From a virus, in the IMG/VR virus record IMGVR_UViG_3300025286_000050, positions 1 to 38,306 of that record: a DNA stretch of 38,306 nucleotides; one strand, given 5' to 3'. The position numbers and the translations under genes are program-made. The notes under the pieces were generated by a model. It was not told where the DNA came from. It saw only the letters and a program-made list of their open reading frames with translations, and did not search any database. Within the stretch, counting starts at the first letter, position 1; each line of letters begins with the position of its first letter. Of this stretch, positions 2-38,306 are shown one piece after another.

Positions 2-340
2 AGCAACGCTGGACTCCGCAAGGGTTCCGATGATGACCGAAACCTCTGGCCCGATACCCTCCGAATCATTGGGGAGGTGGGACCAAGACTCGTCATCCTG
101 GAGAACGTGCCAGGCATCCTTGTGGGAAGTGATGGACGGCCACCATATGGGGGCACCGTGGTCGGACAGTTGGCTGAGGTCGGGTATGACGCGGAATGGC
201 GAGTTGTATCTGCTGCCGATGCAGGAGCGCCACATAAACGGGACCGATGGTGGCTCCTCGCCTACCTCCAAATGGCTGACTCCCACGGCGGCAGACCAGA
301 GACGAGGGTCAAAGGAGGATTGGCGGAAATACCGGGATGA
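2..340 (+). CDS. DNA cytosine-5 methyltransferase, catalytic-half subunit (5'-truncated by window edge)
   Basis: This is the C-terminal part of a C5-methyltransferase catalytic domain, which transfers a methyl group from S-adenosylmethionine to cytosine. The window starts just after the expected PCQ motif. Visible are the ILENVPG block (motif VI), GYDAEWRVVSAAD, and GAPHKRDRWW (motif VIII region). The frame ends soon after at GGLAEIPG, before any motif IX/X, so the product lacks the usual C-terminal third. That third is found in the overlapping +1 frame (30-926). The intact counterpart is at 37659-38282, and the shared segment differs at about 4 of 62 residues. Precedents for split enzymes of this class are M.AquI and M.EcoHK31I. 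Identity of the family is certain; how the halves work together is inferred. Confidence 0.85.
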   Translation, partial: SNAGLRKGSDDDRNLWPDTLRIIGEVGPRLVILENVPGILVGSDGRPPYGGTVVGQLAEVGYDAEWRVVSAADAGAPHKRDRWWLLAYLQMADSHGGRPETRVKGGLAEIPG

Positions 341-926
341 AGGACAAACCTCTGGCGCAAGACTCCGAAACCAGGTGGCCGGCAAGGTCGCCACGCCACC
401 GCTGGCATTGGCGGCGAGGATGTTTCCCACGCCCAAGGGGACGGATTGGAAAGGTTCCGGCACAAGCCAGAAAGCCATCGACCGGGAAGCCGCCCACTTT
501 AACCTCTGGGGAGTGGTGTCAAAGTTGAATCAAATCCCCACACCCTCATCCGGCGGGGATAGCGGAGGGCCGCACGGCATCCGGGGTGGGAGTTGGGCCA
601 AGGAGAAGCTGGTCGAGACATTCGGGGAGGAGGACGCCGTCGCCATGAGCGGTGGTTCCCTCTCGCCCGATTGGGTCTCCTGGCTGATGGGTCTGCCGGT
701 GGGCTGGACTTCGCTGGAGCCGCTACCCGGAGAGGAATACCTCGACTGGTTCCACGCCCAACAGGACGGGACTTGGTGGCAAATTGAACGGGGATTGCCG
801 AGGGTGGCGACCGGCATCAAGGACCGGGTCAACCGCCTCAAGTGCTTAGGGAATGGGATCGTCCCAGCAAGTCTGGCATTATTTTTGAGAGGTGCGACAT
901 GGAGTACAGAGTCGGACAATATGTGA
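30..926 (+). CDS. Methyltransferase partner: target-recognition region plus motif IX/X half of a C5-methyltransferase, in the +1 frame
   Basis: This 298-residue product contains the C-terminal features missing from the overlapping catalytic-half frame. They are LSPDWVSWLMGLPVGWTSLE at residues 211-230 and RVNRLKCLGNGIVP at about 266-279, which matches motif X (the LGN-x-VVP block). Residues 15-63 (WDQDSSSWRTCQASL, then SWLRSGMTRNGELYLLP) and the TPTAAD and FPTPKGTDWKG blocks match a widespread phage protein type usually annotated as methyltransferase-related. About 300 nt are shared with the 2-340 gene in another frame, and both look conserved. ATG 30 (or 33) is the first start available; no strong ribosome-binding site is visible because the window edge is close. 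Role as a second subunit, or as the product of a frameshift, is inferred. Confidence 0.8.
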   Translation: MMTETSGPIPSESLGRWDQDSSSWRTCQASLWEVMDGHHMGAPWSDSWLRSGMTRNGELYLLPMQERHINGTDGGSSPTSKWLTPTAADQRRGSKEDWRKYRDEGQTSGARLRNQVAGKVATPPLALAARMFPTPKGTDWKGSGTSQKAIDREAAHFNLWGVVSKLNQIPTPSSGGDSGGPHGIRGGSWAKEKLVETFGEEDAVAMSGGSLSPDWVSWLMGLPVGWTSLEPLPGEEYLDWFHAQQDGTWWQIERGLPRVATGIKDRVNRLKCLGNGIVPASLALFLRGATWSTESDNM

Positions 927-34453: not shown

Positions 34454-34570
34454 ATGGCCGCAACAACCTGTCTTAAATGCGGGGCCATCGTGCCTGATTA
34501 CGAGACTTGGTTCAAAGAGGATTGTCCCACATGCCTAATAACCTTACATCCGCTTATAGAGTCTCCTTAG
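34454..34570 (+). CDS. 38-residue zinc-ribbon protein
   Basis: The gene starts at ATG 34454 behind GGAG and encodes MAATTCLKCGAIVPDYETWF followed by CPTCLITLHPLIESP. Two CxxC pairs make a minimal zinc ribbon. It overlaps the next gene, which starts at 34531, by 40 nt in another frame, suggesting tight coupling. Confidence 0.6.
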   Translation: MAATTCLKCGAIVPDYETWFKEDCPTCLITLHPLIESP

Positions 34571-35202
34571 CGGAAGTGAAGCTGGCTAGGACCAACGCCG
34601 GGGAACTCCAACGACGGGCTCTCATCGGAGAAATGCCTGAGCTGACCCGACTCCCGTTGTTGGGAGATTCTGCCATCTCGCCCGTTATCAAGGGATGGTC
34701 CCACATGATTGTGGCCTACCCCAAAACCGGAAAAACGGAACTACTGACGCGGATGGCCGCTGAATGGGGCGAGGCCGGACTGAACGTGGTATTTATCACC
34801 GAAGAACCAGAAAGCGTTTGGACCGCAAGACTCTCCAAGCTAACCGTTGGATTTGACAATGTAGATCTCGTCTACGCCATGGGAGCCGAGGCGGATGAGA
34901 TTCTAGAGGCCATCAACCTAGGTACCGACGATGTTGTAATCCTTGACACGATCAGGCTACTGCGAATCCGCGATGAGAACGACAATTCCGCGATCAACAT
35001 CGCCTTGACCCCATTCATCGCCCTCTGTCGGAGAAAAGGGGCGACTCTCTTGATGTCACACCACACACGCAAAGGTAGCGGAGAACACGGGGAAGCTGCC
35101 GCTGGCGGTCACGCCTTTCTTGGGATTGTCGACGTGTCCCTAGAAATACACCGATGGAACGAGGAAGAAGATGCCTTACAAGACATACAAAGCTCCAGGT
35201 GA
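34531..35202 (+). CDS. RecA-fold ATPase (RepA/AAA_25-like), small form
   Basis: This 223-residue protein has Walker A AYPKTGKTE (GKT 67-69), Walker B VVILDT (D139) and a LLMSHHTRKGSGEHG segment at about 174-187, which is the sensor/loop region of replicative-helicase-type RecA folds. It stops soon after, so it is shorter than typical phage RepA-like helicases, which carry a C-terminal extension. ATG 34531 is chosen inside the preceding zinc-ribbon gene. It probably acts in replication or recombination. Confidence 0.75.
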   Translation: MPNNLTSAYRVSLAEVKLARTNAGELQRRALIGEMPELTRLPLLGDSAISPVIKGWSHMIVAYPKTGKTELLTRMAAEWGEAGLNVVFITEEPESVWTARLSKLTVGFDNVDLVYAMGAEADEILEAINLGTDDVVILDTIRLLRIRDENDNSAINIALTPFIALCRRKGATLLMSHHTRKGSGEHGEAAAGGHAFLGIVDVSLEIHRWNEEEDALQDIQSSR

Positions 35203-35540: not shown

Positions 35541-35954
35541 ATGAGATACACACGAGATGAGGCGATGCGCATAGTCTACGGGTTGATACAAGGGCCACAC
35601 TCACGGCCACGCCCCGTGTCAGACGAGACGTTTCGCCGGTGGTTCGACCCAATGGGGGCAGAGCATGACGAGATGATGAAAACGTTGCGTGGCCTGCAAG
35701 AGACATTAGAGGTGGTAATGGAAGATGCCCAGCGAACCGAGTCTCCAACAGCAGGCAGGGGTTTATCAACTTACATGGAAAGACGAGAACGTGGTGATCC
35801 GGGTGGACCGTATCCATACCGAGAAAGCGGGAGTGTACGGGGAAATCCTAATCAGAACAACGGCTCCGGGGTTTCAACCTCATTTGCACGGCCCCGTCCA
35901 CTTCAACCTGATAGCGACGACAAGCCGCCGCCAACTGGTAAGCCATCTGAATGA
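35541..35954 (+). CDS. Hypothetical early protein overlapping the following ATPase gene
   Basis: This 137-residue protein begins MRYTRDEAMRIVYGLIQGPH and has a helical, charged first half (KTLRGLQETLEVVMEDAQRT). The last 76 residues are Pro/Gly/Arg/Ser-rich and are read from the same DNA as the first 76 codons of the ATPase in another frame. The first half looks like a normal protein; the second half looks like overprinted sequence. Translation is probably controlled by the structured leader upstream. Confidence 0.55.
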   Translation: MRYTRDEAMRIVYGLIQGPHSRPRPVSDETFRRWFDPMGAEHDEMMKTLRGLQETLEVVMEDAQRTESPTAGRGLSTYMERRERGDPGGPYPYRESGSVRGNPNQNNGSGVSTSFARPRPLQPDSDDKPPPTGKPSE

Positions 35955-36939
35955 CCTACTGCCCGTGGATTGGGCCGGTGTCCTAGAACAAGCTTGTTAT
36001 ATCGTGGTCGAGCAACACCGCGAGGGAACACCGGCAGTCCATATCGCCGACCACCAGATGCCCGAAGGGTTAGCCATGAGAATCGAACCGATATTACAAG
36101 AGAATCAAGCCACCTTATTCTTCGGCGAGGGCGACAGCCTCAAGAGCTTCTTCGCCACCTACCTTGCCGTGTTGGTCCAGACAGGCACGGCGGCGCCCGC
36201 CCTTAATCCCGTGCTTGGGAACGTCATGTACTTGGATTACGAGACCGACGTGGATACCTTCTGGGAGCGAGTGGATATGCTTACGAGTGGGCTGGATATG
36301 CCTATTCCAGAGGGTATGTTCTACCGCCCGATGGTACAGCCCTTGGTGGCTGAGTTTCCACGGGTGAATGACTTGGTGATGGAGAATGACATCAAACTCG
36401 TGATCGTGGATAGCGCCGCCCCTGCCACTGTTGAGCCGGAGAACGCAGAGAGGGTGACGGCGTTCTTTACGGCGCTGCGGTCCCTGAATACGACCTCATT
36501 GGTGATAGCCCACATGACCAAGACGGCCAAAGGAGACTATCCTTTTGGCAGTACCTTTTGGCGCAACCTGCCTAGGTCTAATTTCCAGGTCAAAGCCGAC
36601 CGCACAGGGAATGACGTGGCTATCTCACTGCGTCATACCAAGTCCAACAACGGCAAGCGGTTGCCCTTGCAAGGGTTCCAGTTTGCCTTTGATGGTAATT
36701 CAGTGATGGTGACTACCGCCAAGCCTGGCGACCATCCGAACCTAGCGGAAGACATGCCGCTCAGACAGCAGATGCAGAACATCTTGGGGCGGGGAGCCAT
36801 GACGCTAGACGAACTAGACAAACTTATCGAGAAGCCTCGGACCCACATTATTTCAGAACTCAATCGCCGGTCGTCCGGCAACCCGTTCACGCAGGTCTCG
36901 CCGGGGAAATGGGGGCTGGCTTTGTCGGGGAATGAGTAA
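35725..36939 (+). CDS. RecA-fold ATPase (RepA-like helicase), full length
   Basis: This 404-residue protein has an N-terminal beta-rich domain (residues 10-110: WKDENVVIRVDRIHTEKAGV and DWAGVLEQACYIVVEQHREG). The RecA-type core follows, with Walker A variant FFGEGDSLKS (G134-S141), YLDYETD (about 169-175), Walker B LVIVDS (D229) and IAHMTK (H263). The C-terminus has a winged-helix-like end (MTLDELDKLIEKPRTHIISE). This layout is common for phage RepA-type helicases that unwind DNA at replication start. The K140 Walker lysine is kept although the preceding glycine is Leu. Confidence 0.8.
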   Translation: MPSEPSLQQQAGVYQLTWKDENVVIRVDRIHTEKAGVYGEILIRTTAPGFQPHLHGPVHFNLIATTSRRQLVSHLNDLLPVDWAGVLEQACYIVVEQHREGTPAVHIADHQMPEGLAMRIEPILQENQATLFFGEGDSLKSFFATYLAVLVQTGTAAPALNPVLGNVMYLDYETDVDTFWERVDMLTSGLDMPIPEGMFYRPMVQPLVAEFPRVNDLVMENDIKLVIVDSAAPATVEPENAERVTAFFTALRSLNTTSLVIAHMTKTAKGDYPFGSTFWRNLPRSNFQVKADRTGNDVAISLRHTKSNNGKRLPLQGFQFAFDGNSVMVTTAKPGDHPNLAEDMPLRQQMQNILGRGAMTLDELDKLIEKPRTHIISELNRRSSGNPFTQVSPGKWGLALSGNE

Positions 36940-37311: not shown

Positions 37312-37478
37312 GTCGTCAGGGATTGGATCTTCCAGATGTCCGGCTGCTTCCCTTTGAAGACGGCCAGTGGCGGAAGGTCGTAGATTAGATGGTGGGCCAC
37401 GTTGAGGAACAGCCCCTGGGACGCCGGGGTGCCGGAGGTGTCGGTCGTGGTCAACACCGCGGAGGACTACCGCGCATG
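37308..37478 (+). pseudogene. Possible degraded small gene(s)
   Basis: Two short open stretches lie here without good starts. One reads LSRQGLDLPDVRLLPFEDGQ and stops at TAG 37386-37388. In a different frame the other reads SPWDAGVPEVSVVVNTAEDY and ends with a TGA that overlaps the next ATG (ATGA). Both look protein-like, so they may be pieces of one frameshifted gene or two tiny coupled ones. A CCCTGA/TCAGGG hairpin (37306-37321) lies at the start. Confidence 0.35.
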
Positions 37479-37655
37479 ATTACGATCCGCCGGACCTGTC
37501 CCGAATGCGGCGGCGACATGGTCGTCGAGCTGTTACGCCCGGGCCCGCATGAGCCGCCGGTCTTGTTCCTGGTCTGCCCTTGCGGGTACTGGGAAGCGGC
37601 GCCGGCGGACATCGAGGCCGAGTTGGAGGACCGTCCCCGGATGCCGGGATTTTAG
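37476..37655 (+). CDS. Zinc-ribbon protein upstream of methyltransferase
   Basis: From ATG 37476 this is a 59-residue protein with RTCPECGGDMVVELL and LVCPCGYWEAA, a classic four-cysteine zinc ribbon. A longer upstream form exists but begins in a different-looking, Gly/Arg-rich leader. It stands 3 nt before the methyltransferase start, so the two are co-translated. It may be a small regulator of the methyltransferase or its DNA target, by analogy with Com; this is only inferred. Confidence 0.65.
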   Translation: MITIRRTCPECGGDMVVELLRPGPHEPPVLFLVCPCGYWEAAPADIEAELEDRPRMPGF

Positions 37656-37658
37656 GAG

Positions 37659-38282
37659 ATGCAAGATGACATGGATATACATCCCCGACTCAACGTCCTC
37701 GACTGTTTCAGCGGATACGGCGGCTTCGCCCTCGGACTCCGACTCGCCTACCCGGACACCAACTTCCGGACGGTCGCCTATATCGAGTGGGACAGATACT
37801 GCCAGCAAGTCATCCAGGCCCGGATCGGAGACGGATACGGATACCTCGATGACGCTCCCCTCTGGGGAGGAGACATCCGAGAATTTGACGGCAAGCCCTG
37901 GCGTGGAAGAGTGGATATCTTGTCTGCCTCTTTCCCCTGCCAACCATTCAGTACTGCCGGCAAACGGGAGCGGGAATTCGATTCTAAAGGGCGAAACCTC
38001 TGGCCCGATACCCTCCGAATCATTGGGGAAGTGGGACCCAGCCTCGTCATCCTGGAGAACGTCCCAGGCATCCTTGTGGGAAGTGATGGACGGCCACCAT
38101 ATGGGGGCACCGTGGTCGGAGAGTTGGCCGAGGTCGGGTATGACGCGGTCTGGCGAGTTGTATCCGCTGCCGATGCTGGAGCGCCCCATAAACGAGCCAG
38201 GTGGTGGCTCCTGGCATATCCCAACGCCGACCTCGGCGGACGTTTACACCGGGAACATGGAATCGAGTCAGCAATCGGATGA
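37659..38282 (+). CDS. DNA cytosine-5 methyltransferase, catalytic-half subunit
   Basis: This 207-residue protein has the motifs of the catalytic half of a C5-methyltransferase. Motif I is LDCFSGYGGFALGL (F17-x-G19-x-G21), which binds S-adenosylmethionine. IEWDRYCQQVI is motif II, FPCQPFS with catalytic C94 is motif IV, ILENVPG (133-135 ENV) is motif VI, and GAPHKRARWW is the motif VIII region. It stops at residue 207, where normal enzymes continue with a recognition domain and motifs IX and X. Those are encoded in the overlapping +1 frame from about 38023 onward. ATG 37659 abuts AGGAG; ATG 37671 is an alternative start with better spacing. Confidence 0.9.
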   Translation: MQDDMDIHPRLNVLDCFSGYGGFALGLRLAYPDTNFRTVAYIEWDRYCQQVIQARIGDGYGYLDDAPLWGGDIREFDGKPWRGRVDILSASFPCQPFSTAGKREREFDSKGRNLWPDTLRIIGEVGPSLVILENVPGILVGSDGRPPYGGTVVGELAEVGYDAVWRVVSAADAGAPHKRARWWLLAYPNADLGGRLHREHGIESAIG

Positions 38283-38306
38283 CTCCATGCACTCGGTGAG
38301 CCTGCC
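38023..38306 (+). CDS. Methyltransferase partner in the +1 frame (3'-truncated by window edge)
   Basis: The +1 frame of the last 284 nt is open from the TTG at 38023 to the window end. It reads LGKWDPASSSWRTSQASL, then SESWPRSGMTRSGELYPLP and HIPTPTSADVYTGNMESSQQ. This is an even closer match to the phage methyltransferase-partner protein type than the 5' copy at 30-926. The open frame reaches further upstream, to a GTG near 37905, so the true start is uncertain. The C-terminal motif X half lies beyond the window. It overlaps the catalytic-half gene for about 260 nt in another frame. Confidence 0.65.
   Translation, partial: MGKWDPASSSWRTSQASLWEVMDGHHMGAPWSESWPRSGMTRSGELYPLPMLERPINEPGGGSWHIPTPTSADVYTGNMESSQQSDDSMHSVSL

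Follow-up and report, generated by a model that had tools for sequence, protein, structure and literature searches.

The DNA analysed here (the window) is the whole 38,306-base IMG/VR virus record IMGVR_UViG_3300025286_000050, which is classed as linear and whose large terminase indicates a tailed phage. At its 3' end, frame 0 of the plus strand encodes alpha, the catalytic half of a C5-cytosine methyltransferase with motifs I–VIII (positions 37659–38282, 207 aa; alternative ATG start at 37671). The motifs FSGYGG, PCQ, ENV and GAPHKR can be read directly from this frame, in that order; PCQ (motif IV, with the catalytic cysteine) lies at 37935–37943 and ENV (motif VI) at 38055–38063, where the +1 frame reads WRTS over the same DNA. 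The initial annotation had described a 207-residue product that carries catalytic motifs I, IV (PCQ), VI (ENV) and VIII and then stops, and profile searches bear this out: alpha matches PF00145 at 125 bits (cut-off 22) over profile positions 2–163 of 324, with a stop thereafter, and phrog_363 at 3.7e-50. A 5'-truncated alpha is found at the other end of the window (positions 2–340, plus strand, stop at 338–340; PF00145, 66.6 bits). The alphas of split loci match PF00145 partially, whereas the Miro, SPbeta-type and Javan65 proteins match it throughout, nearly over the full length of the profile for Miro and SPbeta-type. Alpha is preceded by a gene for a small CxxC protein (37389–37655, plus strand), as is the locus in the relatives L001 and L003. 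Further upstream, two neighbouring genes (34507–35202 and 35725–36939) both match AAA_25 (PF13481) and form a RecA-like ATPase pair. Six large open reading frames tested on the minus strand between 3457 and 23183 (427–1034 aa) had no PHROG match at E ≤ 0.001, and the window phage appears from its sequence to belong to a little-known phage group.

The +1 frame at the 3' end reads SSSWRTSQASL, SWPRSGMTRSGELYPLP and PTPTSADVYTGNMESSQQ, with no stop up to the end of the contig. Its product matches phrog_1008 ('DNA methyltransferase', E = 1.2e-12), in agreement with the proposal that this frame encodes a distinct phage protein, here called beta. The N-terminal part of beta, from a candidate internal start at ATG 37849 (MTLPSGEETS...), runs off the contig (37849–38304, plus strand; 83.7 bits against a beta profile), making 37849–38282 a candidate dual-coding stretch, well supported from about motif IV onward. 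At the 5' end, frame 0 closes at 340 and the +1 frame continues from 3 to 926 (plus strand, 5'-truncated, 307 aa), extending beyond the alpha stop through RVNRLKCLGNGIVP (motif X), as the initial annotation had noted; this beta matches phrog_1008 at 2.3e-19 over profile positions 55–307 of 329. Its motif X, RVNRLKCLGNGIVPASLALFL (825–887, plus strand), aligns with positions 262–312 of the phrog_363 profile, and the tail of beta thus matches the motif-X end of alpha's own family. A putative motif IX, LSPDWVSWLMGLPVGW (660–707, plus strand), was assigned by resemblance; profile alignment of beta with single-chain methyltransferases (hhalign) gave no signal for motif IX. Pfam holds no beta model, a PDB search with beta gave no match, and a scan of genome contigs with the window-type beta returned no relatives. 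Between motifs VIII and IX, beta is variable in length, contains PTP repeats and differs between the two ends of the window; this variable region may be the recognition region. AlphaFold2 modelling of beta alone, with two alignments, gave folds of low confidence (pLDDT 60 and 62), as would be expected of a chain needing a partner, yet such models are uninformative and target recognition by beta remains a prediction. Positions 264–660 and their counterparts in relatives form an array of PTP-containing blocks, variable in length and exchanged among relatives, which makes this array a candidate specificity cassette.

The contig starts and stops inside the methyltransferase gene, and its two ends differ. 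They were initially annotated as two copies. An alpha/beta pair is indeed present at both ends, but the sequence they have in common is limited to 227 nt (38–264 and 37992–38218, plus strand, 93% identity). The relatives L001, L003 and L016 have a single locus, onto which the 3' end and then the 5' end of the window map in order, and in L001 and L016 the same part of the locus is covered by both ends. The 'two copies' are therefore probably the two ends of one alpha/beta locus in a circular map. As relatives have one locus that accommodates positions 37992–38306 and then 1–264, the contig probably represents a circularly permuted genome that is nearly complete, the simplest reading being that its ends carry two alleles of one locus; tandem copies of the locus may also account for them.

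Selection on the overlap was examined in 83 phage loci at no more than 80% identity, gathered by alpha-only queries and aligned to the alpha model, together with a few earlier loci. In the null model, synonymous codons were shuffled within each gene, preserving the alpha protein and codon usage. Over the part of alpha that begins at column 76 (motif IV), 6 stops interrupt the +1 frame, against 220 expected, and this frame is fully open over motifs IV–VIII in 80 of the 83 loci (7.1 expected). Stops are not depleted in columns 1–75 (motifs I–III; 233, 190 expected), nor in the +2 frame, which is open over motifs IV–VIII in one locus (0.8 expected). All 73 of the +1 products tested match phrog_1008. 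The single-chain controls (SPbeta-type, Fpv5, KashFlow and Miro) all have +1 stops in the same region (4/4). Divergence at alpha third positions falls between the motif I–III part and the motif IV–VIII part from 0.54 to 0.33, from 0.47 to 0.22 and from 0.32 to 0.14 in three identity bins (the pairs not being independent), a drop of about 40–55%, while divergence at first and second positions is similar. In the window group, this suppression peaks in the stretch that begins about 15 codons ahead of motif VI; the group is partly recombinant, L003 being sharply different in its second half.

Conservation of beta residues exceeds the synonymous expectation in every 15-column bin (z 7–23), most of all in FSxTWPRSGM and PTP. 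One proline of PTP is present in the beta of 70 of 81 sequences, whereas the alpha residue lying over it is proline in 36, alanine in 17 and serine in 14. Conservation in the +2 frame is also raised (z 6–20), a side-effect of fixing codons, and the information-content test is therefore insufficient by itself. Synonymous shuffles rule out chance openness of the +1 frame on three counts (stops, open loci and beta-profile scores): purifying selection acts on both frames across the family, and the DNA from motif IV onward is truly dual-coding. The scarcity of stops, the suppression at synonymous sites and the beta-profile scores uphold the dual coding first suspected over motifs VI–VIII, but its supported start is motif IV, not motif VI. 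Decay of one frame while the other is kept does not appear as a trend. Three of the 83 loci have +1 stops: in L104 and L073, beta-like sequence resumes beyond a single stop, and L030 has a later beta start. In one further relative (L024, 700–2000), beta is intact while a stop at motif IV interrupts alpha, which also has no recognisable motif I, suggesting a decaying or rearranged copy.

Two loci, from Streptococcus phage Javan65 (L204, 1495–2775) and Clostridioides phage phiC2 (L205, 1549–2499), have a frame 0 whose motifs extend from the catalytic core as far as motif IX, and a +1 reading frame open over motifs IV–VIII (0 stops, with 2.8 and 7.0 expected, respectively). Both +1 frames end in a common SLxDILExEVxxKYxLS block. 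These loci are possibly a second, AT-rich lineage of dual-coding C5-methyltransferases.

The first start codons of the open +1 segment cluster, family-wide, at columns 60–74, just ahead of motif IV, and ATG paired with a Shine-Dalgarno sequence is modestly over-represented (26 vs 18 and 17 vs 9). The ATG common to the window group is 37849 in the window, giving MTLPSG; the 3' end lacks the conserved internal ATG that the 5' end has. No stop interrupts the +1 frame anywhere along the alpha gene in the window and its nearest relatives, and an upstream extension of beta over alpha motifs I–III has been considered (37666–37848, plus strand), from an ATG at 37666 (MTWIYIP...) that lies 7 nt after AGGAG. 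This unproven extension is open in seven relatives, within chance, shuffles giving open frames at frequencies of 0.17–0.47 each, and a phage search with the MTWIYIP N-terminal part gave no match. A full-length overlap from the start of alpha is not supported, with 8 open frames among the loci with that N-terminus and 6.4 expected.

Motif X can lie in either chain, depending on the relative. It is in alpha in 66 of the 83 loci, with beta nested in the +1 frame and carrying an IX-like motif where one is recognised. About nine loci (L003, L016, L019, L022, L027, L030, L045, L048 and L050) and the window differ: their alpha stops after motif VIII, and it is beta that carries motif X. The initial annotation had left open whether the two products pair as subunits or are joined by a frameshift. 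A programmed shift to the +1 frame once motif VIII of alpha has been read would yield one polypeptide and, near the alpha stop of the window group, where the +1 frame carries motifs IX–X, would rebuild the full motif order. Such a system would have a short overlap with a shift site and a fused product, whereas the overlap found here is long and conserved: about 100 codons of conserved beta lie upstream of any shift and would be unneeded by a fusion. In addition, alpha itself reaches motif X downstream of beta in most relatives, where shifting would lose that motif. A frameshift is, consequently, quite unlikely, and pairing of the two chains as subunits is favoured.

The two ends of the window might also be read as a pseudogene pair, with function retained only in relatives. 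The ends differ at 17 sites, mostly alpha third positions: 12 differences are synonymous in alpha and change beta, 5 change both proteins and none changes alpha while being synonymous in beta. Because of this 12:0 ratio, the in-window comparison gives no support for constraint on beta. The two ends, tried as evidence for beta conservation, show the opposite, and the claim that both frames are conserved holds across the 83 loci but not from the window alone. The beta changes in the 5' end include WP to WL and PLP to LLP, and L024 has a broken alpha. Nevertheless, every catalytic motif is intact in the window, both of its betas score above 80 bits, and both frames are open in every close relative, making a decaying methyltransferase an improbable explanation. 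Beta may be relaxed or diversifying in one of the window alleles.

A third possibility is that alpha is a single functional gene or a fragment, the open +1 frame being a shine-through effect of GC-rich DNA that encodes a conserved protein. For the window, this was assessed with a beta profile built from other lineages only, without any sequence of the window group. The +1 frame scores 83.7 bits at the 3' end and 80.8 bits at the 5' end, whereas same-alpha shuffles average 37 and 44 bits, with maxima of 60.9 and 64, respectively; none of 300 shuffles reaches the observed scores, and seven close relatives give the same outcome. Much of the resemblance does come free, shuffled alpha still scoring about 37 bits, and the openness of the window's +1 frame alone has a probability of about 0.09. 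Against this stand the observed scores, above every shuffle, the excess of open loci across the family, the stronger conservation of PTP in beta than in the alpha residues over it, and the lack of motifs IX–X in the window alpha; shine-through is very hard to sustain. A sequencing or assembly error that split one gene, to which the different contig ends inside the gene might point, is barely credible, as the two-frame layout is intact in seven relatives (L001, L003, L004, L016, L019, L022 and L027) and corrected single-frame genes do not emerge as a trend.

The locus very probably encodes a C5-cytosine DNA methyltransferase that is split over two truly overlapping genes, whose two chains probably form one enzyme. 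Alpha (frame 0) would supply the SAM-binding and catalytic core with motifs I–VIII. Beta (+1) would begin inside alpha near motif IV, share the DNA of motifs IV–VIII, and then continue alone, through the variable region of PTP repeats, as far as motifs IX and X. Both chains would be translated from one mRNA, because the ribosome-binding site and start of beta lie within the alpha coding sequence. The chains most likely associate, alpha being responsible for catalysis and beta for target recognition and motifs IX–X, and the complex would methylate phage DNA, probably as a protection against host restriction. More broadly, and with somewhat better than even confidence, these enzymes can be proposed to be obligate two-chain cytosine methyltransferases found phage-wide, with a catalytic core (motifs IV–VIII, about 100–120 codons) whose DNA invariably also codes for the recognition subunit, and with a motif X that has moved between frames and chains during evolution. 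Cases of long overlap on the same strand between two ancient, conserved and catalytically relevant proteins are uncommon and difficult to demonstrate, and it is the many independent lineages available here that make the overlap test decisive. The overlap ties together two subunits that have to meet and limits how the specificity of a phage methyltransferase can change; it also accounts for the output of gene callers, which report either one of the halves or two fragments at these loci. Movement of motif X between frames provides a testable model for the dividing and re-dividing of an enzyme without loss of function.

Several elements of this arrangement are already known: two-chain C5 enzymes, one overlapping case and an annotator's 'internal gene' in a phage. 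No description of family-wide dual coding in phages, or of the window layout, was found among 5.4 million openly available papers, of which four mention M.EcoHK31I itself. The window alpha and beta are members of phrog_363 and phrog_1008, both labelled 'DNA methyltransferase' and catalogued separately; no statement was found of one being encoded inside the other. In Paenibacillus phage Shelly (gp55/gp56), beta is annotated inside alpha with the note 'g55 internal gene', but the Shelly alpha matches phrog_363 right up to the profile's last part and encloses beta completely, whereas in the window alpha stops early and beta continues beyond it. The small chain of M.EcoHK31I is translated from an alternate frame of the gene for the large one. 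M.EcoHK31I (YGGCCR) is a two-chain C5-methyltransferase with motifs I–VIII and X and the predicted recognition domain in the large chain, and motif IX in the small chain (PMC3404938); M.AquI (CYCGRG) is also two-chain, with motifs I–VIII in alpha and IX–X in beta (PMC3404938). The window resembles M.EcoHK31I in having two chains, with beta in the +1 frame inside alpha DNA, but differs from its description in that the window alpha stops after motif VIII and motif X is in beta. It resembles M.AquI in its division of motifs between alpha (I–VIII) and beta (IX–X, with motif IX assigned by resemblance), but M.AquI is split within the variable region and the window in overlapping catalytic DNA; no description of a deep overlap in M.AquI was found in the literature consulted. 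Judged by motif content and by the nesting of beta, the majority layout is of the M.EcoHK31I type, and the small group to which the window belongs combines the motif division of M.AquI with an overlap.
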